This document shows, in pieces, positions 32,531 through 59,244 of a stretch of 60,040 bases of DNA. Both the position numbers and the translations under genes were made by a program. The notes beneath the pieces were generated by a model. That model was not told the DNA's origin and made no database searches. It was given only the letters and a program-made list of their open reading frames with translations. The first letter of the stretch is position 1. The number at the start of each line of letters is the position of its first letter. Source of the stretch: Gilliamella apis (GTDB lineage: Bacteria > Pseudomonadota > Gammaproteobacteria > Enterobacterales > Orbaceae); the NCBI RefSeq assembly GCF_002142155.1, contig NZ_NASD01000017.1:1-60040 (forward strand), given 5' to 3'.

Positions 32531-33601
32531 ATGAAAAAACTTCAAATTATATTGGCTTTGATGTTATTTATCTCTTGTGGAGTAATGGCAAGTGAAGCTA
32601 AAACACAGCCTGATACGGAATTAAAAGTGAGCGACCCAGGTTCACTAATACCTTCTTTATTGCTTGCTGCTGAAAAGGGTGATATGCAATCACAATATAA
32701 TCTCGGTACCATTTATAAACAAGGGTTAGGTGTTGAAGTTAATGATTTAAAAGCATTTTTTTGGTTCAATAAAGCTGCGGAACAAGGATTAGCTAAAGCA
32801 CAAAATAATTTAGCTTATATGTATCAAAATGGATTAGGAACCAAAGCGAATTTATCTGAAGCATTCAAATTTTTTAAATTGGCAGCTGATCAGAATTATC
32901 CTTTAGCTAAATATAATTTGGCGTTAATGTATAAAAATGGTGAAGGAGTTGCTAAAGATATTTCTGCTGCGATTAATTATTTTCGTCAAGCAGGTGATCA
33001 GGGTATTTATGATGCTTACTTAAATTTGGGTATTATGTACTTTTTTGGTGATGATGTAGAAAAAGATCGAATGCTTGCTGCTGATTGGTTTAGTCAAGCA
33101 GCGAAAGATAATAATGCTGAAGCACAATATTATTTAGGATTAATGTCTCAAAATGGTGATGGTTTAACTCAGGATTATGTTGCTGCACTTTATTTTTATA
33201 CGCAAGCTGCAGAACGTGGACATATATTGGCCATGTATAATTTAGGTATTATGTATGCAACAGGCTCAGGAACAAGACCTGATAATACTCAAGCAGCTCA
33301 TTGGTTTACTAAAGCTGCCGAAGGCGGTAATGCTGATGCCCAATATAATATTGCTGTTATGTATGATGTGGGTGGTGGTGTCCCGAAAGACGAAAAGAAA
33401 GCTATAGATTGGTATAATAAAGCTGCCAATCAAGGAAGTGTTGATGCTCAATATAATTTAGCTATTAAATATCTTGAAGGTCAGGATATTAAACAGAATA
33501 TTAATTTAGCTATCTATTGGTTCACTAAAGCCAGTGAGCAAGGTGATGAAGATGCTAAAGCATATCTGGAACAACTTTCTCAAAATAAAAAGGGCGAATA
33601 G
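32531..33601 (+). CDS. Secreted Sel1-repeat protein
   Basis: A 356-residue protein with a signal peptide (MKKLQIILALMLFISCGVMA) and about eight 36-residue Sel1-like repeats from residue 48 to the end. Repeat cores include SQYNLGTIYKQGLGV, KAQNNLAYMYQNGLG, AMYNLGIMYATGSG and AQYNLAIKYLEG. Such alpha-solenoids mediate protein-protein contacts and are common in envelope or host-interaction proteins. The partner is unknown. The stop codon lies inside the terminator hairpin shared with ppc. Confidence 0.85.
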   Translation: MKKLQIILALMLFISCGVMASEAKTQPDTELKVSDPGSLIPSLLLAAEKGDMQSQYNLGTIYKQGLGVEVNDLKAFFWFNKAAEQGLAKAQNNLAYMYQNGLGTKANLSEAFKFFKLAADQNYPLAKYNLALMYKNGEGVAKDISAAINYFRQAGDQGIYDAYLNLGIMYFFGDDVEKDRMLAADWFSQAAKDNNAEAQYYLGLMSQNGDGLTQDYVAALYFYTQAAERGHILAMYNLGIMYATGSGTRPDNTQAAHWFTKAAEGGNADAQYNIAVMYDVGGGVPKDEKKAIDWYNKAANQGSVDAQYNLAIKYLEGQDIKQNINLAIYWFTKASEQGDEDAKAYLEQLSQNKKGE

Positions 33602-33610
33602 CCCTTTTTT
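33588..33610. terminator. Bidirectional terminator between the Sel1 gene and ppc
   Basis: AAAGGGC and GCCCTTT pair around GAATA, with A and T runs on both sides, so it can terminate both converging genes. It overlaps the last codons of the Sel1-repeat gene. Confidence 0.88.
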
Positions 33611-33611
33611 A

Positions 33612-36254
33612 TTATCCTGAATTTCGCATTCCTGCTGCAATACCTGAAATTGTTATCATTAATCCTTGTTCAACAATACTATTTTCATCATTATTTTTAC
33701 GAGAACGACTCAATAATTCGGCTTGCAATAAGTTAAGTGGTTCAATATAAGTATTACGCAATGCGACTGACTCGGCAATCCATGGTAAGTCAGCCATTAA
33801 GCTAATATCATCCGTGATGGTTAGTACAGTATTGATATCCTCAGTTAATAAATTTCTTAATTCATCACCTAATGGCCATAATGTAGAGGAAACTAGACGT
33901 TGTTCATAATATTCATGAATATTTGGTGCTGCTTTGGCATAAACCATTTCTAGCATTCCTAAACGAGCATTAAAAAATGGCCAATTATGATACATATCTT
34001 GCAATTGCTCTTTTTTACCTTCAAGGATAACAACTCTAAGTGCACTACCTGCACCAAGCCATGAAGGCACCATTAAACGGTTTTGAGTCCAAGCAAAAAT
34101 CCATGGTATTGCACGTAGGCTCTCAATTCCACCACCTGTTCGACGTTTTTGTGGACGGGAACCTAATGGTAATCTACCTAGTTCTGCTTCTGGTGTAACT
34201 GCTCTAAAATAATCAACAAATTCAGCTTTTTCTCGAACATAGCTTCGATAGCATTGGCAAGAATAATCTGACATTTCATCCATAATATCTCGCCAGACTT
34301 GCTTAGGCTCTGGAGGTGGAAGTAAATTTGCTTGTAAAATCGCTGATGCATAAAGCATTAAGCTACTAAGTGCAACCTCAGGTAAACCAAGCTTAAATCT
34401 AATCATCTCGCCTTGTTCTGTAACACGTAAACCACCTTTAAGTGATCCTGGTGGTTGTGAAAGTAAAGCCGCATGAGCTGGTGCACCACCACGTCCAATT
34501 GAACCACCACGACCATGGAATAATACTAAGTTAATATTATATTTTTCAAATAAATTGACTAGTTCTTCTTGTGACCGATATTGTGCCCATGACGCAGCAA
34601 GTGATCCTGCATCTTTCGCTGAATCTGAATAGCCAATCATTACCATCTGTTTGCCATTGATCTTTTCACGATACCAAGGAATATCTAAAAGTTTTTGCAT
34701 AACAGATTTAGCATTATTTAAATCGTCTAAGGTTTCAAATAAAGGTGCAACAGGAATATTTTTTTGGCAATCAACACTTTTTAGAAGTAAATAAACTGCC
34801 AAAATATCAGAAGGTGCTTTGGCCATTGAAATTACATAAGAAGCAATTGATTCCTCACCCGCTTTTTTAATCACTCGGCAGGTATCTAATACTTCTTTTA
34901 CCATTTCATCTGGTTGCCAATTATAAGGAAGTAATGGTCGATTAGATTGCAATTCAGCTAATAAAAATTCCTGTTTTTCTTCTTCTGTCCATGAGGCATA
35001 ACTACCTAAATTAAGTTCTTTAGTTAAGGCGTCTAATGCTTCTGTATGTACAGAACTATCTTGGCGAATATCTAATCGAACTAATTGCAATCCAAAGCTT
35101 TTAATACGTCTTAATGTATCTAATAATGGCCCATGAGCAATAGTTGACATGCCATTCTCTATTAAAGATTCATAACAGATATAAAGTGGTGTCCATAATT
35201 GTTCATTTTTAGTCAAAAGATCGGCTGGCGCTAAAACTTGCTCATTGTTTAATAGTGAAATGATATAACCGTGGGTTTTAACTAAACGAGATCGTAGTTG
35301 TTTCATTACGGCTCGGTAAGGCTCTGATGCAGTTTTATTTTGTTCGTTTAATAAATCAATAACCGATTGACTACATTCTGTCATGGATAATTCACGAACT
35401 AGAATCTGAATATCCGCTAAAAATAATTCAATTGCTTTTAATCTGGCTTGTAACATGACCTTTTCTGTCACCTTAGCTGTGACATTTGGATTGCCATCTC
35501 GATCTCCGCCCATCCATGAGGTAAATTTAACTGGTACATGTTCAACGGATAGCTCTTCATTAAATGAATCAACTAGTTGATCATTGAACTCACGTAAAAA
35601 TAGAGGAACACCTTCCCATAAACTATCTTCAATAACCGAAAATCCCCATTTAGCTTCATCAAGAGGTGTAGGGCGTTTTTTACGAATTTCGTCGGTATAC
35701 CATGCTTGGCAAACGAGCTGTTTTAAACGACGCATAATCCGTTCTTTTTCATAATCGGCTAAATCATTATGGTCAAGTTGTGATAAGCAACTATTAATTG
35801 CGGTATAAGTATTAATCATTGTGCGGCGATTGATTTCGGTTGGATGAGCAGTAAGTACTAACTCAATAGATAAATTATCAATCGCTTGTGAAATAGTCTG
35901 AGGAGCAAAATTTAAGTTTTTAAGTGATTTGAATAATTCAGTCATCTTTTTAGGACTACTTGATGCTTCGCCATGAGGCGAAATACCATAATACTCTGCT
36001 GCAGTGTTAACTAAATTTAAAAACTGGTTAAATGCACGTGCAACATGAAGTAGATCTTGATCATTAAGATTCTCAATTAACTTAAGTAATTCATTATGCG
36101 CTTGTTTATTTCCTTGTTGCGCCGATTTGGATAACTGACGGATTTTTTCGACTAAATCGAAAGTTTCATTACCTGTTGCGCGTTTAATTGCATCGCCTAA
36201 TAGGGTGCCTAACATATTGACGTTACTTCGCATTGATGAGTATTGATTATTCAT
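33612..36254 (-). CDS. ppc: Phosphoenolpyruvate carboxylase
   Basis: An 880-residue enzyme (E. coli 883) that carboxylates PEP to oxaloacetate. [12 protein letters not shown] (catalytic His, about 138), [15 protein letters not shown] (about 253-267), [16 protein letters not shown] (about 580-595) and the C-terminal GMRNSG, with the allosteric-site region nearby, are all present. It supplies oxaloacetate to the citrate synthase branch in this window. No truncation or frameshift is seen. It diverges from nuoJ. Confidence 0.97.
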
Positions 36255-36583
36255 TCTATTCTCTACTTGTTTATATTTTTGCCTAAGTGCGTTTAAACTG
36301 TATGATTAAAATGACAATTTAAAGAAAAAGGTATAAATATAGATTAATTGCTCAGGATACATACTTTATAACAATGTTGTATTGAATTTAAATAATAAAA
36401 TTTTATGGATTTTATTATTTCTATTGTTTTTATTATATTTGCTAAATAAATATTCTTACTATTATGAAAAGTTAAAATTTTATTTAGAAAGACTTTTTTG
36501 TATTAACACTGCGTTAGTAAACTGTATATTGTTGTCAATTAAGTATATACTAATGTCATTATGAATAAGTATTGGATGAATTA
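36255..36583. other. Divergent intergenic region ppc/nuoJ
   Basis: These 329 bp are extremely AT-rich. A 60-codon hydrophobic frame (36382-36564) lacks a convincing start and is probably spurious. Promoters for ppc and for nuoJ must lie here. There is no trace of nuoA-nuoI, which would precede nuoJ in a normal operon. Confidence 0.6.
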
Positions 36584-37075
36584 ATGATCGTTGTTTTTTA
36601 TATCGCATCGATAATTGCTGTTTTTGCAAGTATAAAAGTGATTTTTTGTCGGCGAGTAGAAAAAGCAATTTTATATCTGGCTATATCACTTTTTGCATCA
36701 GCATTAATATTTATTCTCCTTGAAACATATATTTCGGCTGTTTTATATATTCTTTTTTTTATTGGTGGAGCTGTCATTCTGTTTAGGGCTGTTTCTTTAA
36801 TGCTCGAAATGCGTCGTGACAATGTTGAAAATGGTAAACATGGTATCAGCCCCAAAATTTGGCTAGGACCATTAGTTTTAGCATTTATTTTATTAGTTGT
36901 TCTTATTTATGGCGTAGTAAGCACTGACTATACACAGTTCACGGAATCTCATGAATTGATGCACCAAATGTCAATCTATGCTTATGTATTAATGGCTGAG
37001 TTAGCTACATTTTTATTATTAGGTGCTGCAGTTATATCTTATCATTTTATGCATCGAATGCTGTCGGAGAAATAA
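36584..37075 (+). CDS. nuoJ: NuoJ-like complex I membrane subunit, altered
   Basis: A protein of about 163 residues resembling NuoJ (E. coli 184). It aligns well at the start, FYIASIIAVFASIKVI and ILYLAISL matching FYICGLIAILATLRVI and LLYLIISL. The normally conserved helix 3 motif with Glu55 and Tyr59 (EIIVYAGAIMVLF in E. coli) reads YILFFIGGAVILF here, so Glu55 becomes Tyr, Tyr59 becomes Phe, and an Arg follows within the helix. Five membrane segments remain. Start: ATG at 36584 with GGATGA upstream; a TTG four codons earlier is possible. It is the first gene of a nuoJKLMN block with no nuoA-I before it. Function in a classical complex I is doubtful. Confidence 0.85.
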   Translation: MIVVFYIASIIAVFASIKVIFCRRVEKAILYLAISLFASALIFILLETYISAVLYILFFIGGAVILFRAVSLMLEMRRDNVENGKHGISPKIWLGPLVLAFILLVVLIYGVVSTDYTQFTESHELMHQMSIYAYVLMAELATFLLLGAAVISYHFMHRMLSEK

Positions 37076-37076
37076 T

Positions 37077-37379
37077 GTGATACCACTTATGTATGGTTTG
37101 ATTTTTGCCTCTATCTTATTTGTAATAGGGCTTTTAGGGGTAATGATTAGACGTAATCTCTACTTCTTATTGTTAAGTCTTGTCATCATGAATAATGGAG
37201 CCATTGCAGCACTTTTTGTTGCAAGTAGTTATTGGCAGCAATCTGATGGAGAGGTGCTTGCTATATTAGCGGTAACGGCGGTATTAGCTCAAATATCTGT
37301 CGGGCTTGCTTTACTGGTAAAATTAATTTATCGACGTAAAAACTTTAATATTGACTCATTGAGTGAAATGAAAGGATGA
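37077..37379 (+). CDS. nuoK: NuoK-like subunit lacking both essential glutamates
   Basis: A 100-residue protein, the same length as E. coli NuoK and alignable without gaps: (V/M)IPL--GLI-A-ILFV-GL-G--IRRNL-F, SYW-Q-DG at 51-58, and the C-terminal FNIDSLSEMKG. Position 36, an essential membrane Glu in E. coli, is Val, and position 72, the second essential Glu, is Gln. These residues carry protons in the E-channel; their mutation in E. coli strongly reduces or abolishes activity. The GTG at 37077 is the start, overlapping the nuoJ stop codon and matching the E. coli N-terminus. The reading frame is intact, so selection for something other than normal proton pumping is possible. Confidence 0.88.
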   Translation: MIPLMYGLIFASILFVIGLLGVMIRRNLYFLLLSLVIMNNGAIAALFVASSYWQQSDGEVLAILAVTAVLAQISVGLALLVKLIYRRKNFNIDSLSEMKG

Positions 37380-39223
37380 ATTTACTTTATTTAACTATCA
37401 TTGTTCCATTATTATCTTTCTTGATATTAGTCTGTTTTGGGCGACAAATACAATCCATTAATGTGATGTTAATCGGGATTTGTACGATGTTTCTTGTTGG
37501 ATTAATAACAATATTTTCTTGTATTGATTTTACTACCAATACTGTTCCAGATATGACATTGGTTTATACAAGAAATTTATGGACTTGGTTTTCAGTCGGT
37601 GATTTTGAAGTTCCTATATCTTTAACACTAGATGGCTTATCACTAACATTCTTAGTATTAATATCATTCTTTGGTTTATTGATTTATTTTTTTGCCGCCT
37701 GTTATTTAAAATCGAGAAAAGATATTTATACTTTTTATGCATATAGCAATTTACTTATAGCAAGTGTGTTAACGGTTGTTCTTGTTGATAATTTGTTTGT
37801 GATGTTACTTGGTTGGGAAGGGGTGAGTATAAGTACTTACTTACTTATTGGTATCTACTACAAACAAGCTCGCAATAGTTATGCTGCCGTTAAAGCATTT
37901 GTTATGATGCATTTAACTGATATTTTTCTAATCATAGGTATATTCTTACTTTATCAGACTTTAGAAACATTAAAAATTAGCGATATTTTAATAAAAGCGC
38001 ATAATGATTTAGCTGTTGATTCAGATATTATTTTTTGGATTACGTTAATGTTATTTCTTGGCGCTATGAGTAAATCTGCGCTTTTCCCAATGCATTCATG
38101 GTTCAAAGAAACAACACTAGCACCGATGCCAGCGGTTGCGTTATTGCAATCTTCTACTGTTATATTTGCTGGTGTTTATCTGGTCTTAAGACTAAGCAAT
38201 CTGTTTATGATGTCAAGTGATACGCTTAATATAATGCTTTTATTTGCTTCTTTGACTGTTATTTTTGCCAGTAGTATTGCTTTGGTTCAAAATGATATAA
38301 AACAGATTATAACTTATATCAATTTAGCGCAAATAAGTTATCTATTTTATGCATTTTCGACCCAGAGCTGGAATTTGTCATTAAGTTGTTTGATTAATTA
38401 TGCTGTAACTAGCACATTACTCATTCTTGCTTCTGCAATTTTAATCAAACAGTGCCAAGGTGAACGAGACATCAATAAACTTGGTGGCTTGTTAAAGTCT
38501 AATCGAGTTTTATATGCAATCTTCTTAGTAATCATGTTATCACTTAGTGCCTTACCGTGGGTGTCAGCATCATTTTATATTAAAGGTGATATTATTTGGG
38601 GATTAATGGCTCAAGATAGCTTAATGGCCGGTACTATCGGCTTATTAGGTATTTTATTGTCTAGTTTATGTATTTGGCGATTGATATTTTTGGTTTTCCA
38701 TCATTCAATTAAAATTGAAAAGATAATAAGAATCAGAAAAATAAATTATTATCCGCTTTTTATCTTATTGATATTTACTACGGCACTGTTTATTTACTTG
38801 CCATTGCCGATAAAAGGGATAATCCCAATAGCCAATTTAGATACGCAAGGTCAGATCCCATTTAGAATATTGCTGTGTGCAGTAACCTTATTAAGTTTAG
38901 TCATTGCCTATATTCTTTATGCTCATCCGAACGCTGAAGTTCATGAAATTCTCAATACTCCGATGATCAAATCGTTAGGAAAATTATGTAAAAGTGATTG
39001 GCGATTTGACTATTTGTTAAATAATGTTTTTGTAAAACCATATATTTATTTAGCAAACTTACTGAAAAAGGATCCATTAGCCTTATGGGATGATTGGATT
39101 ATGTGGGGGATAAAGAAAATAAATGCTTATATTGTCAGTTTAGAAAACGGACAAATAAGATGGTATATGGTTTCAATGGTAATAGGTAGCATTATTATAT
39201 TAATGTTATTGATTTTTATTTGA
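37376..39223 (+). CDS. nuoL: NuoL-like antiporter subunit, partly altered
   Basis: A 615-residue protein (E. coli NuoL 613) with the 14-helix antiporter domain, the lateral amphipathic helix and a final C-terminal helix; SENGYLRWY of E. coli is LENGQIRWY here. Kept: Glu148 (LGWEGVSISTY, E. coli Glu144), Asp182 (Asp178), Lys233 (GAMSKSALFP, Lys229) and Lys403 (FYIKGDI, Lys399). Changed: His254 to Gln258, His338 to Tyr342 and Lys342 to Ser346. The central hydrophilic axis is thus broken between the two half-channels. The start overlaps the nuoK stop codon. It probably sits in a complex with NuoJ, K, M and N. Confidence 0.9.
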   Translation: MNLLYLTIIVPLLSFLILVCFGRQIQSINVMLIGICTMFLVGLITIFSCIDFTTNTVPDMTLVYTRNLWTWFSVGDFEVPISLTLDGLSLTFLVLISFFGLLIYFFAACYLKSRKDIYTFYAYSNLLIASVLTVVLVDNLFVMLLGWEGVSISTYLLIGIYYKQARNSYAAVKAFVMMHLTDIFLIIGIFLLYQTLETLKISDILIKAHNDLAVDSDIIFWITLMLFLGAMSKSALFPMHSWFKETTLAPMPAVALLQSSTVIFAGVYLVLRLSNLFMMSSDTLNIMLLFASLTVIFASSIALVQNDIKQIITYINLAQISYLFYAFSTQSWNLSLSCLINYAVTSTLLILASAILIKQCQGERDINKLGGLLKSNRVLYAIFLVIMLSLSALPWVSASFYIKGDIIWGLMAQDSLMAGTIGLLGILLSSLCIWRLIFLVFHHSIKIEKIIRIRKINYYPLFILLIFTTALFIYLPLPIKGIIPIANLDTQGQIPFRILLCAVTLLSLVIAYILYAHPNAEVHEILNTPMIKSLGKLCKSDWRFDYLLNNVFVKPYIYLANLLKKDPLALWDDWIMWGIKKINAYIVSLENGQIRWYMVSMVIGSIIILMLLIFI

Positions 39224-39239
39224 TAAAGGTGTGAACTTA

Positions 39240-40784
39240 ATGTTGTTATGGCTTGTTTTCTTACCTGTAATTGGCGGATTTATTGGTTGGCTTTGTCATG
39301 TATTTTTACAGAGAATCATGACTTCAACCGATATACAGTTGCGTTGGCAACGTTTACCAATGATGATTGCTCTTACAACCATATTAATCACGTTTATTTT
39401 GGTAATTGTTTTATGGGCAGATGCAAGCAGTTCTTTAGAACAAAGTCCAAACTGGATTAAAGAAGTTAATATTGATTGGATCCCTTTACTTGGTATTCAT
39501 TTTCATTTGGTATTAGATGGTTTATCTTTGATTGTTATTAGTTCAACACTCTTTGTTGTATTGTTAGTTATTGTTTATTCTAGTAAAGAAAATCTTAATA
39601 ATGTCGGATTATTTTATTTATGTGTATTATTTATGGCATCAGCCATTATGATGTTATTTGTAATCACTGATCTGTTTTTAATGTTTTTCTTTTGGGAAGC
39701 GGTAGCTATTCCAATCTATTTTTTAATTTCGTTGTGGGGCAGACGAGATTTAAATTCACAATTACGTTTTAATGGTGCTAGCAAATTTTTAATTTACACT
39801 CAGATAAGTAGCCTACTAATGCTAATATCGATTGTATCATTGGCCTTAATCAACTGGAACATAACGGCGAAATGGACTTTTGATTATCAAATTTTAACTA
39901 ATACGCCGATTTCAAGTAATACCGAATTTTTATTAATGCTAGGCTTTTTAGCTGCTTTTATTATACGTATTCCTTTAATCCCTTTTCATAATTGGTTTAT
40001 TGAAGCACATATTGAATCGTCAACAAGTGGTTCGATGATGATAAGTGGTTTGTTAGTTAATACAGCAGCATTTGGTTTATTACGTTTTGTGATCCCACTT
40101 TTTCCTAATGCTTCGCTAACAATTATGCCGTTTATTTTAGTGTTGGCTATATGTACGTTGTTTTATACCGCTTTACTTGCTTTTAATCAGACAGATATTA
40201 AGAAGCTGATTGCTTATATCCATATTGCTTTAATGGGATTTGTCACGGCTATTATTTATAGCGGCTCAGTTATTGCTTTCCAAGGTGTTGTTATTCAAAT
40301 GATAGCTGTTAATTTAGCTATTGTTGGTATGTTTATAATAAGTGGTTTGTTAGCAGAATGTTATTTAACCCGAAACATTAATCAATTCGTTGGATTAAAA
40401 GAGCAAGTAAAGTATTTGTCTTCTTTTACTCTATTTTTTATGTTAGCTGTGTTAGGTATTCCAGGAACGGCTAACTTTGTTGGTAATTATATGATGTTAT
40501 TAGGTAGTTATAACTCATATCCTTATTACACTATCTTACTGGCAATTGGATTATTGTTATTGTCGATATCGTTAATTATTCGCATGCAACCTATTTTTTA
40601 TGGCGTAGTTGATAAAATTACGGTTACAAAACACTTGCTGAGTAAAAAAGATATTTTTCTATTGTCTAGTGTGCTTATTGTATTAATTTTTATTGGATTA
40701 TATCCAAAAATGGTTTTAGATATGTCTTATTCTATTGTCAACCAAACACTGCAATATATAATTACTGAAAGAGTGGGAGAGTAA
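39240..40784 (+). CDS. nuoM: NuoM-like antiporter subunit, key residues lost
   Basis: A protein of about 514 residues (E. coli NuoM 509). From the ATG at 39240 the sequence MLLWLVFLPVIGGF matches the E. coli start MLLPWLILIPFIGGF. Glu144 is kept (FFFWEAVAIPIYFLI). Changed relative to E. coli: Lys234 to Arg (AFIIRIPLIP), Lys265 to Asn (LLVNTAAFGLLRF), His322 to Leu, His348 to Val and Glu407 to Asn (NFVGNYMML). Lys234 and Glu407 are essential or near-essential for proton translocation in E. coli. Overall similarity remains high (NTAAFGLLRF, LFPNAS, QTDIKKLIAY), so it is a true NuoM descendant that has lost its pump residues. Confidence 0.9.
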   Translation: MLLWLVFLPVIGGFIGWLCHVFLQRIMTSTDIQLRWQRLPMMIALTTILITFILVIVLWADASSSLEQSPNWIKEVNIDWIPLLGIHFHLVLDGLSLIVISSTLFVVLLVIVYSSKENLNNVGLFYLCVLFMASAIMMLFVITDLFLMFFFWEAVAIPIYFLISLWGRRDLNSQLRFNGASKFLIYTQISSLLMLISIVSLALINWNITAKWTFDYQILTNTPISSNTEFLLMLGFLAAFIIRIPLIPFHNWFIEAHIESSTSGSMMISGLLVNTAAFGLLRFVIPLFPNASLTIMPFILVLAICTLFYTALLAFNQTDIKKLIAYIHIALMGFVTAIIYSGSVIAFQGVVIQMIAVNLAIVGMFIISGLLAECYLTRNINQFVGLKEQVKYLSSFTLFFMLAVLGIPGTANFVGNYMMLLGSYNSYPYYTILLAIGLLLLSISLIIRMQPIFYGVVDKITVTKHLLSKKDIFLLSSVLIVLIFIGLYPKMVLDMSYSIVNQTLQYIITERVGE

Positions 40785-40790
40785 TAACTT

Positions 40791-42509
40791 ATGATAGCTT
40801 TATTGCCAATATTTATATTGAGCTTTGCCATAATAGTTTTGCTCATCGCATTATTTATTTTCAAAATAGATACTAAAAAATGTGCTACTTTAACCATATC
40901 GGGATTAATTTTTGCATTAGTTTTCTCAGCAATTTTGGGGTATAAAATTTCATTTAATACCCAAGCAATATCAGATATTAGTAGTGACAATATGCAAATA
41001 TCTGTTTCTTCGCCACTAGATACTAGTGATAAAACGCCTGCAACTGAACAAACGGTAGCTATTGATGCCGTACCTACAGAACAAGAAATCACTACTTCGG
41101 AAAATTCGGAAATTACAGAGTCTGTTACAGAAAATAATGATATGGTTGGATCGTCACCTAATGTAGATGATACTCAGCAGAATGATGCTAATAACGAATG
41201 GGGAGCTCATCATGTTACTGCGTTATTTACTTGTGATGGTTATGGGTTACTTTATACCAGCTTAATTTTAATCATTTCAATTGTGGTCGCATCATTAGCT
41301 TATCGATGGTTTGTACAAGAAGAAATCAACCATGGATTATTCTATATAATTTTACTATTTATGACATTAGGCGGAATCACTTTAGTTTATGCTAGTCATT
41401 TAATGTCATTCTTTCTTGGAATTGAATTACTTTCGATTCCATTTATTGGCTTAATCGGCTATCAATACATCCAAACCCATGCGCTAGAAGCTGCGATTAA
41501 ATATATGATTTTGTCTGCCATTGCTAGTTCATTTTTGTTAATGGGTATTGCTTTTTATTATGCTACGACTGGCGAGCTGACATTTAGTGGTTTAAGTTAT
41601 CAATTATCAACCATGACCTATCCAAGTACATTATTATTAATTGGTATTTGTTTAATGTTAGTTGGTATTGGTTTTAAACTTTCGCTGGTACCTTTTCAAC
41701 TTTGGTTACCTGACGTTTACCAAGGGGCTCCGACAGTTGTTTCATTACTACTATCAACGGTAGGTAAAGTCGCCGTGTTTTGTGCTATTGCCAGACTATT
41801 TTTATTAGCACCAATAGTAAATAATGAAACAATCCGTATTATTTTGGTTATTATGGCCTTTTGTTCAATTTTATGGGGAAATTTATTGGCATTAATGCAA
41901 AGTAGCTTAAAAAGGTTATTGGCTTATTCCTCAGTTGCCCATTTTGGCTATCTTTTACTGGCTTTAATTGCCGTGCAGTATCAGGTGCTCGCTTTAGAAA
42001 CAATAGGTGTTTATTTAATTGGCTACATTTTTGCCAACATCTGTGTTTTAGGCGTGATCAGCTTAGAATCCCATTCCAATGAGTTACAAGATCATGAAAA
42101 AGAAATTGATCTTTCAGGATTATTTTGGCGTCGCCCTATTTTAGCCTTGGCAATGGGAGTTGGTTTATTATCTCTAGCAGGTGCACCACTTACAGCAGGT
42201 TTTGTAGGACGTTTTCTTTTAGTACTATTAGGTGTGACGGCTGAGTTATGGTGGTTAATTGCTGCAGTAGTGATTGGTAGTACTATAGGTTTATATTTCT
42301 ACTCACGACTTATTCTTAATCTTTATATTAGGCCTCCTACCAGCCATGATGATTTCTCAGGTAATAATTCTATTATTAAATTGAAATGGCAAGATATAAA
42401 AGTGAGTGAATTATTTATTGTTATCGCAGCATTATTAACCATGGTATGTGGTGTTTATCCTAAATGGTTATTTAACTTGGTTAGTATGGCACAATATTTA
42501 ACGACTTAA
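40791..42509 (+). CDS. nuoN: NuoN-like antiporter subunit with a long loop insertion
   Basis: A 572-residue protein, about 87 longer than E. coli NuoN (485). The extra sequence is a Ser/Thr/Glu/Asp-rich stretch at about 58-140, between the second and third helices, where E. coli has a short loop. Kept: Glu212 (FFLGIELLSIP, E. coli Glu133), Lys296 (GFKLSLVPF, Lys217), Lys326 (Lys247) and His384 (His305). Changed: Lys395 to Arg474 (GFVGRFLL). It is the least altered of the five nuo products. It ends the block; yajC follows 182 bp later with its own ribosome binding site. Confidence 0.9.
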   Translation: MIALLPIFILSFAIIVLLIALFIFKIDTKKCATLTISGLIFALVFSAILGYKISFNTQAISDISSDNMQISVSSPLDTSDKTPATEQTVAIDAVPTEQEITTSENSEITESVTENNDMVGSSPNVDDTQQNDANNEWGAHHVTALFTCDGYGLLYTSLILIISIVVASLAYRWFVQEEINHGLFYIILLFMTLGGITLVYASHLMSFFLGIELLSIPFIGLIGYQYIQTHALEAAIKYMILSAIASSFLLMGIAFYYATTGELTFSGLSYQLSTMTYPSTLLLIGICLMLVGIGFKLSLVPFQLWLPDVYQGAPTVVSLLLSTVGKVAVFCAIARLFLLAPIVNNETIRIILVIMAFCSILWGNLLALMQSSLKRLLAYSSVAHFGYLLLALIAVQYQVLALETIGVYLIGYIFANICVLGVISLESHSNELQDHEKEIDLSGLFWRRPILALAMGVGLLSLAGAPLTAGFVGRFLLVLLGVTAELWWLIAAVVIGSTIGLYFYSRLILNLYIRPPTSHDDFSGNNSIIKLKWQDIKVSELFIVIAALLTMVCGVYPKWLFNLVSMAQYLTT

Positions 42510-42691
42510 TTTTTTTGCTGGTTCATTGTTGGCGGGTACTGTATTTATTTAGTTAATTGAATAAAATTGTTAATAATAGCGATATTTGTTGTTAACTTAA
42601 AAGATATTGGCAAGAAATAGTTAATAATCGATTTATTTATTGTGTTATAATTCTGCACTTTAATATTTTTATATTCATTAAGAGGACCAAT

Positions 42692-43021
42692 ATGGACTTT
42701 TTTATTTCTAATGCATACGCAGCTGATGGTGCTCAGCCTGGTGGCGATTACATAATGCCAATTATGTTGGTGGTGTTTGGGCTATTTTTCTATTTTATGA
42801 TTATGCGTCCACAACAAAAACGTGCTAAAGCACATCGTGAGTTAATGGCTTCTATTTCAAAAGGTGATGAAGTATTAACTAATGGTGGACTTATTGGTCG
42901 AGTATCAAAAGTTAATGAAAATGGTTATATTGTGTTAGAGTTAAATGATACAACTGAAGTTGTTATCAAACGTGACTTCATCACATCGGTATTACCAAAA
43001 GGAACAATGAAATCATTATAA
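42692..43021 (+). CDS. yajC: Preprotein translocase accessory subunit YajC
   Basis: A 109-residue single-span inner-membrane protein. PIMLVVFGLFFYFMIMRPQQ (about 23-42) and KRAKAHRELMASISKGDEVL (about 43-62) followed by TNGGLIGRV are typical. It associates with SecDF-YajC, which aids SecYEG export. GAGGA precedes the ATG. In E. coli tgt and queA lie upstream; here nuoN does. secD follows after 58 bp. Confidence 0.95.
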   Translation: MDFFISNAYAADGAQPGGDYIMPIMLVVFGLFFYFMIMRPQQKRAKAHRELMASISKGDEVLTNGGLIGRVSKVNENGYIVLELNDTTEVVIKRDFITSVLPKGTMKSL

Positions 43022-43079
43022 TAGATTTTGCTATTATAATTCATTGTATTAATTATCTAATCCCACAAGAGAATATGTC

Positions 43080-44936
43080 GTGCTAAATCGCTATCCTTTG
43101 TGGAAGTACATTATGTTGGTCGTCGTGATTTGCGTCGGCCTACTTTATGCTCTTCCAAATATTTATGGTGAAGATCCCGCTATACAAATTTCAGGTTCAA
43201 ATAGTGCCGAAATTAATGTTGCTACGCAAGATAAAGTCAAACAACTTTTGGTGAAAAATCAAATTGAACCTAAATCACTAGTTTATGAAAATAAATCTAT
43301 TTTAATTCGTTTAAGTGATAATGATACTCAGCTGAAAGCTAAGGAATTAATATCACAAGAATTAGGTGATGATTATACTGTTGCACTAAATCTAGCGCCT
43401 GCAACACCATCATGGTTAACAATGATTGGTGCCGAACCCATGAAATTAGGGCTTGATTTGCGTGGTGGTGTGCATTTCTTAATGGAAGTAGATATGACTA
43501 CTGCGTTAAGTAAATTGACAGAACAATCGATTGAAAATTTAAAAGCAGAGTTCAATAAAAATAATCTAAATTACAAAGCATTAAATAAAAGTAGTAATCA
43601 ACAAATCTTAATGCAATTCGATAATACAGAAGATCGAAACAAAGCTATTACTAAAATTAATGGATTGCAAGATTATGAATTAACTTCGCAAAGTGAAAAT
43701 AGCATCGTTATTAGTGTCAGCCAACAGCGGCTACAACAAGCTAAAAGTGATGCTGTACAACAAAATACCACCATTTTGCGTAATCGTGTTAATCAATTAG
43801 GTGTTGCTGAACCAATTGTTCAACGTCAAGGTTCTGATCGTATTGTTGTTGAGTTACCTGGTATTCAAGATACTGCATTAGCTAAACGAATTTTAGGTGC
43901 AACTGCAACCCTCGAGTTTAGACAAGTAAATGAAGATGGTTCAACTGACTTAGAAGCTATTTTAAAAGGTGAAATGCGTGTTCCATATGGTTCTGAAATA
44001 AAATATATGGAAAATGGTCGTCCGGTCTTACTTTATAAACGTGTAGTATTAACAGGTGATCATATTACCGATTCTTCATTTAGAGTAAATGAATATAGCC
44101 AGCCTGAAGTTTCTATTAACTTAGATAGTGCTGGTGGCAAAACTATGCTTGATTTCACGCAGAAACATCTGAAAAAAGCAATGGCAACATTATTTGTTGA
44201 ATATAAAGATACTGGAAAACGTGATGAAAATGATAAACCAATTCTTGAAAAACAAGAGAGAGTTATCAATGTAGCAACGATCCAAGGTATTTTTAGTGAC
44301 CGATTCCAAGTAACTGGGATTAGTAGTGTTGATGAAGCTAGAAACTTATCACTACTATTAAGAGCAGGTGCATTGATTGCGCCGATCCAAATAATTGAAG
44401 AACGTACCGTTGGTCCGTCAATGGGGCAAGAAAATATTACTCAAGGTTTAGAATCTTGTGTATGGGGATTATTAATTTCGGTAATCTTTATGTTAGTGGT
44501 ATATCGTTTATTTGGTGTATTCGCTAGCCTTGCATTAGTTGCAAACTTAATTCTTATTGTTGGTGCAATGTCTTTATTACCTGGGGCAACATTAAGTATG
44601 CCAGGTATTGCCGGTATTGTACTAACTGTAGGTATGGCAGTTGATGCGAATGTTTTAATTAATGAGCGTATAAAAGAAGAGCTCAGTAATGGTCGAGGTG
44701 TCCAACATGCAATTAACGAAGGTTATGCTGGCGCTTGGAGTAGTATTTTTGATGCCAATATTACCACATTAATAACTGCGATTATTCTTTATGCAGTAGG
44801 TACAGGTTCTATCAAAGGCTTTGCCATTACATTAGGTATCGGTATTGTAACATCGATGTTTACCTCGATCGTAGGGACTCGAGCTCTGGCCAATCTTATT
44901 TATGGTGGTCGTCGCGTCAATAAGTTATCAATTTAG
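43080..44936 (+). CDS. secD: Protein export membrane protein SecD
   Basis: A 618-residue RND-superfamily protein (E. coli 615). MLNRYPLWKYIML at the start, GLDLRGGVHFLMEVD (about 121-135), the periplasmic P1 domain, and TM motifs MPGIAGIVLTVGMAVDANVL (about 506-525, proton-relay Asp) and NERIKEEL are present. With SecF it uses proton motive force to pull exported proteins. The GTG start matches the E. coli N-terminus. Confidence 0.97.
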   Translation: MLNRYPLWKYIMLVVVICVGLLYALPNIYGEDPAIQISGSNSAEINVATQDKVKQLLVKNQIEPKSLVYENKSILIRLSDNDTQLKAKELISQELGDDYTVALNLAPATPSWLTMIGAEPMKLGLDLRGGVHFLMEVDMTTALSKLTEQSIENLKAEFNKNNLNYKALNKSSNQQILMQFDNTEDRNKAITKINGLQDYELTSQSENSIVISVSQQRLQQAKSDAVQQNTTILRNRVNQLGVAEPIVQRQGSDRIVVELPGIQDTALAKRILGATATLEFRQVNEDGSTDLEAILKGEMRVPYGSEIKYMENGRPVLLYKRVVLTGDHITDSSFRVNEYSQPEVSINLDSAGGKTMLDFTQKHLKKAMATLFVEYKDTGKRDENDKPILEKQERVINVATIQGIFSDRFQVTGISSVDEARNLSLLLRAGALIAPIQIIEERTVGPSMGQENITQGLESCVWGLLISVIFMLVVYRLFGVFASLALVANLILIVGAMSLLPGATLSMPGIAGIVLTVGMAVDANVLINERIKEELSNGRGVQHAINEGYAGAWSSIFDANITTLITAIILYAVGTGSIKGFAITLGIGIVTSMFTSIVGTRALANLIYGGRRVNKLSI

Positions 44937-44945
44937 AGGTTTATT

Positions 44946-45947
44946 GTGACTATTAATAAAAAAGAAAATCATGATGTTAGAGAATTAAATCATGGACGAA
45001 GAGTACTCGACTTTTTAAAATTTGGCTTCATCGCTTTTGTTATCTCAATGTTATTGGTTGTTGCTTCATTTGTGGTTGTTCTTGTTAAAGGCTTTAATCT
45101 TGGACAGGATTTTACCGGTGGCACCACAGTTGAACTGACAGTAACTAAAGCCGTAAATCTTGATGATTTACGTAATAGTTTACGTGATGCAGGTTATCAT
45201 GAACCAGTCGTTCAGTATTATGGCAGCAGTAAAGATATTATTATCCGTTTAGCCACCGCCAATCAAAATGAGGGTAGTGCATCATCTGCAATTGATAATG
45301 CATTAGGTACTAAAATCTCTAATTTAGTACATAAAGATATTGATAGTAATGCTGAAATTAAGCGAGTTGAATTCGTTGGTCCTACGGTTGGTTCTGAATT
45401 AGCTCAAGATGGTATTTTGGCGATCTGCGCCGCATTAATATGTATCTTAATTTATATTGCATTTCGATTTGAATGGCGATTTGGTACTGGTGCTGTTGTA
45501 GCATTAGCGCATGACGTCGTCATTACCGCGGGCTATTTATCACTCTTTGATCGTGAATTAGATTTAACCATTATTGCAGCAATGTTATCTATAATTGGTT
45601 ATTCACTTAATGATACTATCGTTGTATTCGATCGAATTCGTGAGAATTTTAGAAAAATACGACGTGCGTCGCCATATGATGTTATCAACATCTCATTAAC
45701 TCAAACATTACATCGAACCTTAATGACATCTGGCACAACGTTAGCCGTTGTTATTATCTTATATATTTTCGGTGGTTCAATGTTAAAAGGTTTCTCTGAA
45801 ACATTAGGGGTTGGTATTGTGTTAGGTACAATTTCATCAATTTATGTAGCAGCATATATGTCGCTTAAATTAGGTGTGAAACGTGAACACTTTATGCCAC
45901 CAAAAGTTGAAGCAGAAGGCGCGGATCAAAACGCAATTTTACGTTAA
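44946..45947 (+). CDS. secF: Protein export membrane protein SecF
   Basis: A 333-residue partner of SecD (E. coli 323). FNLGQDFTGGTTVELTV (about 50-66), VEFVGPTVGSELAQDG and the TM4 motif SIIGYSLNDTIVVFDRIREN (about 215-234, essential Asp) are clear. The GTG start at 44946 has GAGG seven bases upstream. The gene ends the yajC-secD-secF operon, which a strong hairpin closes. Confidence 0.97.
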   Translation: MTINKKENHDVRELNHGRRVLDFLKFGFIAFVISMLLVVASFVVVLVKGFNLGQDFTGGTTVELTVTKAVNLDDLRNSLRDAGYHEPVVQYYGSSKDIIIRLATANQNEGSASSAIDNALGTKISNLVHKDIDSNAEIKRVEFVGPTVGSELAQDGILAICAALICILIYIAFRFEWRFGTGAVVALAHDVVITAGYLSLFDRELDLTIIAAMLSIIGYSLNDTIVVFDRIRENFRKIRRASPYDVINISLTQTLHRTLMTSGTTLAVVIILYIFGGSMLKGFSETLGVGIVLGTISSIYVAAYMSLKLGVKREHFMPPKVEAEGADQNAILR

Positions 45948-45953
45948 TCATTC

Positions 45954-45993
45954 AAGCTCTGTCATAGCCTGACAGAGCTTTGTTAGCTTTTTT
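45954..45993 (+). terminator. Terminator after secF
   Basis: A perfect 11-bp stem AAGCTCTGTCA (45954-45964) and TGACAGAGCTT (45970-45980) is followed by TGTTAGC and then a T-rich run. Confidence 0.82.
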
Positions 45994-46069
45994 TTGAGCA
46001 AATAATATTAATTTATTTGACACCCTTTAACTAGTTGCATATTATTAGCCACAGTTTTTCATCCCTTTA

Positions 46070-46229: not shown

Positions 46230-46547
46230 ATGATTCAATACAATCCAAAAATCTTAGCAAATGAATGTCGTGATATGAATGATATTCGAGCGGAAATTGA
46301 TAATATAGATCATCTGGTAATTCAATTACTCGCAACTCGTTTTGACTATGTTAAAACAGCAAGCCAATTCAAAAAAAATACTACCGATGTGCAAGCTAAA
46401 GAACGTTTTAATAGCATGCTTGAGCAACGTAAACTTTGGGCTGATGAGTTAGGTCTCAATGGCGATGTAATTAAAGAATTGTATGCTAACTTAGTTAGAT
46501 ATTTTATTGATGAAGAATTAAAGTATTTTAATAATAATGGTAAATAA
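46230..46547 (+). CDS. PchB-like chorismate mutase/isochorismate lyase
   Basis: A 105-residue all-helical AroQ-class protein. DIRAEIDNIDHLVIQLLATR (about 19-38), FDYVKTASQFK (about 39-49), ERF-SMLEQRKLWADELGL and the C-terminal RYFIDEELKYF closely follow the layout of Pseudomonas PchB, which splits isochorismate to salicylate and pyruvate and has weak chorismate mutase activity. No isochorismate synthase (PchA) or siderophore genes are nearby, so salicylate production is uncertain. It overlaps or abuts the ClbS-like gene, and the two are surely cotranscribed. Confidence 0.75.
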   Translation: MIQYNPKILANECRDMNDIRAEIDNIDHLVIQLLATRFDYVKTASQFKKNTTDVQAKERFNSMLEQRKLWADELGLNGDVIKELYANLVRYFIDEELKYFNNNGK

Positions 46548-46548
46548 A

Positions 46549-47061
46549 ATGAATTACGCCAATAAACAACAACTATTAGATGAAATTAACAAAACAGCTA
46601 AGCTATTTATTGATGAATTCAGTGAATTAAGCGAAGCCGAAAAAGATAAATTAATTGAAGGTGTTGATCGAACGCCAGCACAAATGATTGCTTATCAACT
46701 TGGATGGTTAGATCTTGTTAAATCTTGGGATGATGCTGAACTTGCTGAGCAAACCCCTGTATTGCCAGCGGAAGGATATAAATGGAATCAGTTAGGTGAA
46801 TTATACCAACATTTTTATAAAATATATCAAGATTATTCATTACAAGAGCTGATTCAATTATTTAAGCAGAAACTGACTACTTGGAATAGTTGGATTGAGT
46901 CATTAGATGATAATACGCTTTTTACTAAAGATGCTCGCAATTGGACAAAACCTTATCCTTCAGCATGGCCTGTGGCACGATTTATTCATATTAATTCAGT
47001 TGCGCCATTTAAATCTTTTAGAACTAAAATCAGGAAATGGAAAAAACTAAATTCACATTAG
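46549..47061 (+). CDS. ClbS/DfsB family four-helix protein
   Basis: A protein of about 170 residues of the ClbS/DfsB/IRC4 (DUF1706) family. NKQQLLDEINKTAKLF at the start, DRTPAQMIAYQLGWLDLVKSW (trimmed here to PAQMIAYQLGWLDLVKSW), LPAEGYKWNQLGELYQHFYK and the C-terminal RFIHINSVAPFKSFRTKIRK line up with E. coli ClbS, a cyclopropane hydrolase that protects colibactin producers from their own genotoxin. The start may be 46549 or 46537; neither has a strong ribosome binding site. No colibactin synthesis genes are in the window, so it could be a stand-alone immunity protein or have another substrate. Confidence 0.78.
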   Translation: MNYANKQQLLDEINKTAKLFIDEFSELSEAEKDKLIEGVDRTPAQMIAYQLGWLDLVKSWDDAELAEQTPVLPAEGYKWNQLGELYQHFYKIYQDYSLQELIQLFKQKLTTWNSWIESLDDNTLFTKDARNWTKPYPSAWPVARFIHINSVAPFKSFRTKIRKWKKLNSH

Positions 47062-47347: not shown

Positions 47348-47713
47348 CTAATTACTAAATCTATGCTTATCCCTATGTATATAAGGAACAATCTGCGCAG
47401 TGTGCCATCGAGCCTTAAGCTTTATCTTTTTGTTTTGGCTTACTTTCTTGATACCATGGTGATAATGCTTGCCATGGTGTATACCATCAGGTGATTCCTG
47501 TGTATTAAAGCGTGCTTCATGAATATCAAGTAATGTTTTACTTATATGATTAAATAAACCATGTGTATCGAGCAAAGCAAATTCTATGTTGATTAGTGCG
47601 TCTTGTACATTGAATTCAATATTTACGCCAGTCATTTTTTTACCTATACTATTTAAAAGGTATTCGCGGGCAGTCTCCGACAGGACCTCCAATCCCACGC
47701 GCAGCCTACCCAA
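47348..47713 (-). pseudogene. Phage tail-completion (gpG/gpS-like) remnant
   Basis: From an internal ATG near 47635 the frame reads about 95 residues resembling Mu gpG/P2 gpS-type virion morphogenesis proteins: a hydrophobic helix, then LLDIHEARFNTQESPDG (family pattern L---R-RF----PDG) and QNKKIKLK in place of the usual basic stretch before LTE-G-L. The conserved Trp after PDG is missing, and the C-terminus runs through a degenerate CRISPR repeat, so the natural end is gone. The upstream 26 residues are probably not native. No other intact phage gene flanks it. I read it as a decayed fragment. The sequence resemblance is modest. Confidence 0.45.
47363..47391 (-). repeat. Degenerate, detached CRISPR repeat
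   Basis: This 29-bp stretch matches the array repeat at 23 of 29 positions, in the same orientation, with the core TTATCCCTATGT intact. It is 511 bp from the distal end of the array. It suggests that the array once extended further or was split by the intervening phage-like sequence. Confidence 0.75.
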
Positions 47714-47902: not shown

Positions 47903-48358
47903 AGGTTTATCCCTATGTGTATAGGGAACACCCCCATATATTTTCGTGCAGTTCGATAACCGGCGGTTTATCCCTATGTGTATAGGGAACACTTTTTAGC
48001 CAAATGGTTATACCCCTCGGCTAACGGTTTATCCCTATGTGTATAGGGAACACTCATAGTATTATTAGAAACGTTTACCGTTTTCCGGTTTATCCCTATG
48101 TGTATAGGGAACACCGAATTAGACAAAACGGGGCATCTTGTATGCGCGGTTTATCCCTATGTGTATAGGGAACACTTCCAGCTAATACCTAGCACCCAAT
48201 CAAATGGCGGTTTATCCCTATGTGTATAGGGAACACTTGGTTGCTTCTTTTGTAAAAACGAATTCACCCGGTTTATCCCTATGTGTATAGGGAACACTTG
48301 AATTGATGGATTAAAATTAGAAAAAGAAGCGGTTTATCCCTATGTGTATAGGGAACAC
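47903..48358 (-). CRISPR. Type I-E CRISPR array, 8 repeats, 7 spacers
   Basis: Eight 29-bp repeats start at 47903, 47964, 48025, 48086, 48147, 48208, 48269 and 48330, an exact 61-bp period, so all seven spacers are 32 bp. On the minus strand the repeat begins GTGTTCCCTA and ends GGGATAAACCG, the layout of E. coli I-E repeats, with a palindromic CCCTA/TAGGG stem. The repeat at 47903 has a changed last base (CCT for CCG), which marks the old, leader-distal end; transcription is therefore minus-strand with the leader at 48359-48477. No two spacers are alike. The recent-end repeats are identical. Confidence 0.97.
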
Positions 48359-48477
48359 CCTAATTATAACCATTTGTTTTATAATTGAAATATAAGGGAG
48401 TAATTTTTTACCGATTTTTTCTGTATGAAATTCACTCAACTTATTGCAAGTTAAAATTATTAATATTTAACTTTAAA
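48359..48477 (-). promoter_or_regulatory. Putative CRISPR leader
   Basis: The 119-bp AT-rich stretch between the cas3 stop codon and the first repeat is at the leader end judged from repeat orientation and from the degenerate distal repeat. No terminator separates cas3 from the array, so the array may be read from the cas3 transcript. An IHF site or leader-anchoring motif was not identified by eye. Confidence 0.55.
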
Positions 48478-58438: not shown

Positions 58439-58792
58439 TTATCTTACAAATAAAATATAAATCGCATGAGCTGTCCATGCTAACGCTAAACCATACGTAA
58501 GTAGCTTTTCTCGCTTTGGATAGATATTAAATTGATGTAACAAAGTTAGAATCTGTTGCAATCCACACCAAATTGGTAGCGAAATCATTAAGCACAAAAA
58601 TAATTTACCTAATTCAGTATTAGCTAACTTTAAAATATATGAACGCGTTATCGCGTCACCAAAAGGAATGATAAACGCAACAATGATTAATACCACTGGT
58701 GCGAAAATAGCTGCCCAAAGCCCACCTAAAGCAAATAATCCTTTTGCCACTTTTGAGTCTGACTGTATTGGTTGAGTTTGTTGATTTTTCAT
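58439..58792 (-). CDS. frdD: FrdD-like fumarate reductase membrane anchor, altered
   Basis: A 117-residue three-helix protein of the length of E. coli FrdD (119). GLFALGGLWAAIFAPVVLI (about 18-36) and the LMISLPIWCGL motif (about 68-78) match GLFGAGGMWSAIIAPVMIL and LMIVLPLWCGL. After WCGL, E. coli has His-Arg, which lies at the quinone site, followed by further His; here Gln79-Gln80 follow and only one His remains at about 86. It is 14 bp after the frdC-like gene. frdA and frdB are not adjacent. Confidence 0.82.
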   Translation of the reverse strand: MKNQQTQPIQSDSKVAKGLFALGGLWAAIFAPVVLIIVAFIIPFGDAITRSYILKLANTELGKLFLCLMISLPIWCGLQQILTLLHQFNIYPKREKLLTYGLALAWTAHAIYILFVR

Positions 58793-58806: not shown

Positions 58807-59244
58807 TTATTTAATTATCAATAATAGTAAGCAATATGAAAGTAAAATTGTTACACCCCATAAGCCAATAATAAGTAAATATCCTTGTTTCTTTTTATGA
58901 ATATTTTGCTTAAAAATAATCTTTGGCATTAACCTAAACCAGTTTATTGAATGAAATAAAGCGAGTAGTAATGCAATACAGTTTAGCACTACAACAACTG
59001 GGCTTTGTAAGAAAAAGATAAAACGATAAAACTCATCTTGTCCCATTCTATTTGTATACATACAGATAACACCATACATCAACACCAAACTAACCCAAAT
59101 CATGGAAAAAGGCGTTAATTTATCAATGATTGACAGAAATAACGGCTGTTTTGTCTGTAACGATGTGATCTCGGATTGTGTACCAGTATTGTTATTATTT
59201 AAATCATTATTTGCTGGATAATTATCATTATTCTTCTTAATCAT
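58807..59244 (-). CDS. frdC: FrdC-like fumarate reductase membrane anchor, altered
   Basis: A 145-residue three-helix protein (E. coli FrdC 131). FLQSPVVVVLNCIALLLALF (about 78-97) and HSINWFRLMPK match E. coli [31 protein letters not shown], and His82 of E. coli is kept. The first-helix motif with Arg28-Glu29 (LREGTAVPAVW), needed for menaquinol oxidation, aligns with DKLTPFSMIW, so Arg becomes Asp and Glu becomes Lys. An Asn-rich low-complexity extension occupies residues 1-35. frdB, which should end just upstream, is absent: the preceding gene is an unrelated membrane protein. Confidence 0.8.
   Translation of the reverse strand: MIKKNNDNYPANNDLNNNNTGTQSEITSLQTKQPLFLSIIDKLTPFSMIWVSLVLMYGVICMYTNRMGQDEFYRFIFFLQSPVVVVLNCIALLLALFHSINWFRLMPKIIFKQNIHKKKQGYLLIIGLWGVTILLSYCLLLLIIK

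Follow-up and report, generated by a model that had tools for sequence, protein, structure and literature searches.

Can the membrane arm of respiratory complex I be of use to a bacterium in which the subunits that drive it are not found? The question is raised by a 60,040-nucleotide stretch of the Gilliamella apis genome (NZ_NASD01000017.1, contig C9 in our numbering; this whole stretch is called the window), where nuoJ, nuoK, nuoL, nuoM, and nuoN stand together as five intact plus-strand open reading frames (ORFs) spanning 36572-42509. We find that the genes of nuoJKLMN have been kept as one unit, all with open frames, throughout the family Orbaceae and that they are under purifying selection within Gilliamella, more loosely than four of five control genes. 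The supposed leftover has very probably been retained for a role, and we lean toward a repurposed, non-redox membrane arm centered on NuoN, perhaps with a periplasmic partner.

Five membrane subunits and the families missing around them

A previous reading of the window, made from its letters alone (the sequence-only reading), described five complete, uninterrupted membrane subunit genes with ppc upstream. This description holds, with all five ORFs open and ppc divergent from them:

36584..37075, + strand: nuoJ, over the PF00499 cut-off; ATG at 36584 picked by alignment, the ORF opening with TTG at 36572
37077..37379, + strand: nuoK, over the NCBIfam NuoK cut-off; GTG at 37077 taken as the start by alignment to the 100-amino-acid (aa) E. 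coli NuoK, the ORF opening at 37023
37376..39223, + strand: nuoL, 615 aa with a complete C terminus, over the TIGR01974 cut-off
39231..40784, + strand: nuoM, 517 aa, over the TIGR01972 cut-off
40791..42509, + strand: nuoN, 572 aa, over the TIGR01770 cut-off; keeps the most canonical sites among the five

The best family model for each protein was its own NuoJ, NuoK, NuoL, NuoM, or NuoN model, with NuoJ passing the Pfam cut-off and falling under that of NCBIfam. Among the best 80 of 224 matches to the window NuoM, the nearest named relatives were Gilliamella, then Orbaceae bacteria, Frischella, Orbus, Zophobihabitans, and Schmidhempelia; identity was 51 to 96% for 28 Orbaceae and at most 42% for the next rows.

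The sequence-only reading also described the five genes as standing without nuoA to nuoI. In the window genome (2.52 Mb in 54 contigs, 100% complete), no match was found for NuoA (PF00507), NuoB (PF01058), NuoD (PF00346), NuoF (PF01512), or NuoH (PF00146), each of which was matched in E. coli as a control; the statement stands for these five families, NuoC, NuoE, NuoG, and NuoI not having been searched. There is no second nuoJ-N set, as a NuoL search of the genome returned NuoL, NuoM, and NuoN only. Of the parts of complex I, orthologs of NuoJ to NuoN are thus present, and the quinone module (NuoB, NuoD, and NuoH), the NADH module (NuoF), and the connector NuoA are missing. Absence of these five families makes a redox-driven complex I impossible in this genome, and NADH-driven proton pumping without the missing subunits is implausible. 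A sodium-translocating NADH:quinone oxidoreductase (Na+-NQR) or Rnf complex was also considered and was rejected because NqrB/RnfD gave no match in the window genome.

Across the family, PF00346 was matched in 5 of 44 genomes; the other 39, including the window's, gave no match and with it no large subunit of a group-4 hydrogenase. The five matching proteins show a split match within a frame of 589 to 623 aa, have extra antiporter-like genes nearby, and lie on another contig or about 86 to 97 kb from nuoJ-N; by these features they look like group-4 hydrogenase. In an order-wide sample of 394 genomes, NuoJ was over the cut-off in 147 (33 Orbaceae and 114 others; the count leaves aside 15 genomes whose NuoJ match fell below it). 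PF00346 accompanied it in all 114 genomes outside Orbaceae and in only 5 of the 33 within, the same five as above. Within this sample, the orphan state is confined to Orbaceae.

Retention and selection across Orbaceae

An intact NuoL was found in 42 of 44 family genomes, among them all 39 good ones; the two exceptions are 59% and 74% complete. The full five-gene set was read in 41 of the 42, leaving out G032 (67% complete). In each of these 41 genomes, drawn from five genera, every frame is open and close to full length, and no other gene lies between nuoJ and nuoN. Two secondary NuoL matches (G006 and G034) contain stop codons, which were taken as the end of NuoM because the NuoM frame is open in both genomes (529 and 515 residues).

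Median pairwise ratios of nonsynonymous to synonymous substitution rates (dN/dS) within Gilliamella were 0.158 for nuoJ, 0.110 for nuoK, 0.099 for nuoL, 0.080 for nuoM, and 0.106 for nuoN, and those of the control genes were 0.043 for ppc, 0.062 for secD, 0.046 for secF, 0.043 for ubiD, and 0.115 for yajC. These values were obtained by the Nei-Gojobori method from pairs with a synonymous distance (dS) of 0.05<dS<1.2, and the pairs are not independent. Hits with less than 85% query coverage were dropped, leaving 32, 31, 32, 32, and 31 of 32 rows for nuoJ to nuoN, respectively, and 22 to 30 for the controls; from the window, only 33501-46000 was used, hence it gave no ubiD row. Neutral evolution was simulated 200 times at 0.15 substitutions per site, which is the smallest synonymous distance to the nearest relative among the five genes; these runs gave a mean of 39.7 stops and a minimum of 24, and even at 0.05 substitutions per site, all frames were kept in 0 of 200 runs. 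Neither the disrupted frames nor the dN/dS near 1 of a decaying pseudogene cluster was seen. The very early decay that the sequence-only reading had offered as an alternative is not supported, given these medians of 0.08 to 0.16 and five open frames in 41/41 genomes, and the frame disruptions in sister strains that it had named as evidence for decay were found in none of the 41. The mark of a new role that it had set beforehand, dN/dS well below 1 with the same substitutions across species, was what we observed, at the level of genera, and its proposal of a repurposed module gains support from the open frames and from replacements mostly common to the five genera.

Orbaceae formed one clade in all five subunit trees, with a stem of 0.29 to 0.81 (FastTree). 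The stem exceeded the mean within-family depth in NuoM (0.81 versus 0.68) and NuoN (0.53 versus 0.43) and not in NuoJ, NuoK, or NuoL; a quick NuoM tree has long branches, with stems of 1.97 for Orbaceae and 2.01 for another group. A burst of change on the Orbaceae stem, with constraint afterwards, is only suggested and weakly supported, because the excess is seen in NuoM and NuoN alone and some canonical lineages have equally long NuoM stems. NuoL also retains its C-terminal region (E. coli residues 521 to 613), with a between-genera identity of 49% versus 54 to 57% for residues 1 to 430; this region is not unusually conserved and so is no proof of assembly.

Residues replaced and residues kept

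The sequence-only reading had named 13 residue replacements, all of which are seen when the proteins are aligned with those of E. coli K-12: E55Y and Y59F in NuoJ; E36V and E72Q in NuoK; H254Q, H338Y, and K342S in NuoL; K234R, K265N, H322L, H348V, and E407N in NuoM; and K395R in NuoN. Twelve of these sites are altered in at least 38 of the 41 genomes, across five genera. In all 41, NuoM carries K234R, H322L, and E407N and has changed Lys265 and His348, NuoL carries H338Y and has changed Lys342, NuoJ carries Y59F, NuoK has changed Glu36, and NuoN has changed Lys395 (to Arg in 40); NuoL H254Q is found in 38, and NuoJ Glu55 is changed in 39. The exception is NuoK Glu72, which is Glu in 25 genomes and Gln in 16. 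Two of the replacements, at NuoM 234 and NuoN 395, are Lys to Arg, a change that preserves the charge and makes proton exchange less ready.

Other pump residues are kept in the window: Glu144, Asp178, Lys229, and Lys399 of NuoL (38, 41, 39, and 40 of 41 genomes, respectively), Glu144 of NuoM (41/41), and Glu133, Lys217, and Lys247 of NuoN (each 41/41). Many of the Glu, Lys, and His residues expected of a pump are therefore replaced in NuoK, NuoL, and NuoM and largely kept in NuoN. Columns invariant (at least 95%) in a canonical set, which comprised E. coli, 20 loci chosen among the 114 NuoJ-bearing genomes outside Orbaceae, and the 52 loci not from Orbaceae in the best 80 of 224 matches (the nuoA-I presence of these 52 was not checked), are kept in Orbaceae at 9/28 for NuoJ, 14/22 for NuoK, 50/136 for NuoL, 66/106 for NuoM, and 59/69 for NuoN. 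Preferential loss of charged sites was considered and rejected (Fisher p of 0.32, 0.31, 0.81, 0.31, and 1.0 for NuoJ to NuoN, with only one charged invariant column in NuoJ and five in NuoK). Charged columns disappeared at no higher rate than other columns and so were not a special target; canonical constraint was lifted broadly in NuoJ, NuoL, and NuoM. The changes themselves are real, but to speak of a concerted loss of pump residues, as had been proposed, goes too far, since charged sites fared like the rest and the NuoN core was kept. At some lost sites, a single new residue is now shared by 39 or more of the 41 genomes; there are nine such sites in NuoM, 11 in NuoL, two in NuoN, one in NuoJ, and none in NuoK.

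According to a summary of earlier mutagenesis, changes at NuoN Lys217, NuoM Lys234, or NuoL Lys229 abolish function, and the effects of NuoN E133A are modest (PMC3046159). A wave running through Lys247 and Lys395 of NuoN, Lys265 and Glu407 of NuoM, and Lys399 of NuoL has been described as a proposal in a paper where NuoM E407K is reported still to pump at lower stoichiometry (PMC9271201); by that result, no single replacement here proves that pumping is lost. Judged by the PMC9271201 scheme, NuoM is without its central and exit residues and NuoN has a nearly full set.

Constraint and an insertion in NuoN

When 11 Orbaceae and 11 canonical sequences, chosen by the analyst, were compared, the numbers of newly constrained and newly free columns were 12 and 32 for NuoJ, 7 and 14 for NuoK, 28 and 112 for NuoL, 24 and 55 for NuoM, and 67 and 24 for NuoN. 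NuoN alone gains constraint, and the other four show the reverse. NuoN has 179 invariant columns in the Orbaceae set versus 122 in the canonical set at alike mean identity (0.61 and 0.62). The new constraint is clustered, with 12 sites in one 20-residue stretch, and 0 of 2,000 permutations were as dense. Invariant runs of at least seven residues in all 41 genomes number three, all in NuoN; one, PFQLWLPDV, is largely canonical, and the other two stand with an insertion between the second and third transmembrane helices (TM2-TM3):

40947..41210 (approximate, hand-counted), + strand: NuoN TM2-TM3 insertion, rich in Ser, Thr, Asn, Asp, and Glu, predicted periplasmic
41796..41822, + strand: NuoN loop LFLLAPIVN (E. 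coli 257-265), predicted periplasmic, invariant in 41/41
41973..42008, + strand: NuoN loop VQYQVLALETIG (E. coli 316-327), predicted periplasmic, invariant in 41/41

Among the 11 canonical NuoN sequences, at least three residues occur in 8 of the 9 columns of LFLLAPIVN and in 10 of the 12 columns of VQYQVLALETIG. The TM2-TM3 segment is 75 to 223 aa long in the 41 Orbaceae rows versus 16 aa in E. coli, and its Asp plus Glu outnumber its Lys plus Arg in 41/41. The two loops and the insertion would be periplasmic if, on E. coli NuoN, Arg31-Arg32, Arg148-Arg151, Lys295-Arg296, and Arg352/Arg363 are taken as cytoplasmic by the positive-inside rule. A DNMQ motif was also seen in the insertion in 31 of the 32 rows from the genus Gilliamella, as were Thr-Asn repeats in some family genomes.

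What the orphan arm may do

In the reading that we favor, the electron-handling half would have been lost in the Orbaceae ancestor, by parsimony (the NuoD family alone was searched family-wide), and the five proteins would still form one membrane arm, because all five have been kept together. NuoL and NuoM, without a canonical proton wire across their centers, would serve mainly as frame. NuoN, which keeps the Glu133/Lys217/Lys247 core, would have gained a constrained and probably periplasmic face. It might still pass or sense protons, coupled at that face to a partner; this step of channel plus partner, drawn by analogy with the NuoL-like DabB and its cytoplasmic-side DabA, is a guess and rather doubtful. 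A fuller version is more speculative, namely, a machine on NuoN that uses or senses the proton motive force, with the acidic insertion and the two loops as a periplasmic docking site and with FrdCD, the fumarate reductase membrane anchors encoded in the same window and orphaned in most Orbaceae, perhaps part of the same rewiring.

Several points weigh against a repurposed arm centered on NuoN. No partner gene was found, and none lies inside the cluster in 41 loci. The NuoN topology comes from the positive-inside rule, and the loops may pack on NuoM, simply fitting it better, instead of meeting an outside partner. The permutations ignore the usual clustering of conserved sites, and the Orbaceae sets of NuoJ to NuoM are more diverged than the canonical ones (mean identity of 0.51 to 0.64 versus 0.62 to 0.76), which partly explains their loss of constraint. 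Since charged sites were not preferentially changed, the replacements may be relaxed sites that settled later. The dN/dS of nuoJ-N is 2 to 4 times that of ppc, secF, and ubiD and close to that of yajC. An AlphaFold model of NuoM built with 15 family sequences was mostly helical at modest confidence (mean predicted local distance difference test score of 67.6; predicted template modeling score of 0.74).

Alternatively, the five proteins may act as a scaffold or stabilizer in the membrane that moves no ions, with selection on fold and subunit contacts. The open frames are as expected for such a role, as are the changes in 41/41 at NuoM Lys265, His322, His348, and Glu407 and NuoL His338 and Lys342, together with the two Lys-to-Arg exchanges that hold charge at the cost of ready proton exchange; however, the retention of Glu133, Lys217, and Lys247 of NuoN in all 41 genomes seems to be more than a scaffold needs. 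We consider a scaffold possible without expecting it, and a pure scaffold is nearly as likely as proton handling by NuoN with a partner. Retention in cis, for example, of transcription carried into yajC-secD-secF, would fit the finding that yajC directly follows nuoN in 38 of 41 loci, but the genes are intact in G026, G004, and G010 even though yajC is not downstream there, and constraint on amino acids would be left unexplained, making this explanation very improbable. Least probable of all is an arm of a working complex I or hydrogenase with its other subunits elsewhere in the genome: PF00346 does occur in five family genomes and four Nuo families went unsearched, but those five proteins resemble group-4 hydrogenase and lie away from nuoJ-N, and the other 39 genomes have no PF00346.

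PMC11325843 reports nuoJKLMN in every one of 95 Gilliamella genomes and in Orbaceae more widely, and it suggests that these genes, like frdCD, are remnants of genome reduction. The presence of the orphan genes is accordingly not new. The sequence-only reading, by which a non-pumping nuo membrane arm was not known to be described, is overtaken in part; the selection test, the replacements, and the NuoN constraint were not found in the available part of that paper or by a literature search that excluded subscription papers and two papers that PMC11325843 cites. No other writing on orphan nuo genes was found in the search outside subscription papers, and a search for transposon or proteome data from Gilliamella pointed to one paper (PMC13289173). 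A functionless remnant would agree with the loss of NuoA, NuoB, NuoD, NuoF, and NuoH, with dN/dS higher than in every control but yajC, and with the mixture of Glu and Gln at NuoK 72. It fits poorly, however, with five open frames in 41/41 genomes of five genera at dN/dS of 0.08 to 0.16, with neutral simulations that never kept all frames, and with the invariant new sites in NuoN, and we regard it as unlikely.

The family, which has cultured members, offers a natural experiment on the complex I membrane arm without its electron-handling half: the arm has been kept, the central proton-transfer residues have been changed in two of the three antiporter-like subunits, and the third has been tightened. 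These results question a published reading in which these genes of a bee symbiont are debris, and they suggest that orphan membrane subunits in other organisms, too, be tested for selection before they are called remnants.

Neighboring genes and the upstream element

Three features flank the five genes:

33612..36254, - strand: ppc, divergent upstream neighbor (context only), adjacent in 33 of 41 loci
36543..36552, + strand: GTATATACTA element, lying 41 bp upstream of the ATG of nuoJ and including a -10-like TATACT
42692..45947, + strand: yajC-secD-secF, downstream neighbors (context only), with yajC the first gene after nuoN in 38 of 41 loci

The GTATATACTA element is present in a single copy in the window and starts 40 to 44 bases ahead of the aligned nuoJ start in 32/32 loci of the genus Gilliamella; its palindromic core, GTATATAC, is missing from 9/9 loci of the other four genera. 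It could be a promoter -10 element or, alternatively, an operator. No FNR or CRP site common to the genus was found upstream of nuoJ at up to two mismatches.

The three genomes without yajC-secD-secF downstream of nuoN are G026, G004, and G010 (loci L040, L065, and L077). In G026 and G004, yajC and secD are instead found upstream and inverted, a local rearrangement that left nuoJ-N whole, and in G026 and G010, nuoN is followed by ORFs of 902, approximately 510, 164, and 200 residues. Elsewhere in the window, frdD (58439-58792) and frdC (58807-59244), on the minus strand, encode the fumarate reductase membrane anchors with no frdA or frdB alongside. A search for FrdC matched 43 of 44 family genomes. 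Of the 30 best loci, 29 have both frdC and frdD close to full length and one is truncated; a FrdC His is retained in 29/29. PMC11325843 has already described this second orphan membrane module and places frdAB next to it only in Zophobihabitans. A CRISPR-like array of eight repeats at 61-base spacing (47903-48367) adjoins a type I-E Cas3 gene (48478-51186, minus strand); of the ORFs near the array, 47351-47713 has no match and 46537-47058 is a DUF1706 protein, and neither is Cascade, cas1, or cas2 (only the neighbors were searched, not the genome).

Comparison with known systems

The closest known counterpart is the NuoJKLMN arm of E. coli complex I (PDB 3rko), which has five orthologous subunits in identical gene order. 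In contrast to E. coli, the Orbaceae window genome lacks the five searched families NuoA, NuoB, NuoD, NuoF, and NuoH (NuoC, NuoE, NuoG, and NuoI were not searched), central residues of NuoL and NuoM and residues of NuoK and NuoJ are replaced, and NuoN is enlarged and has new invariant loops. The membrane modules of Mrp antiporters and group-4 hydrogenases share the Proton_antipo_M domain or related models, a likeness at the level of family models only, whereas each Orbaceae protein scores best with its NuoJ, NuoK, NuoL, NuoM, or NuoN model. As described in PMC13144422, the DAB complex resembles the orphan arm in that an antiporter-like subunit of complex I occurs without complex I and is coupled to another protein. 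DAB pairs one NuoL-like DabB with a cytoplasmic DabA, whereas Orbaceae have five subunits, flanked in the window by ppc and yajC; and DabB2 is reported there to keep the proton-transfer residues of NuoL, several of which the Orbaceae NuoL has lost.

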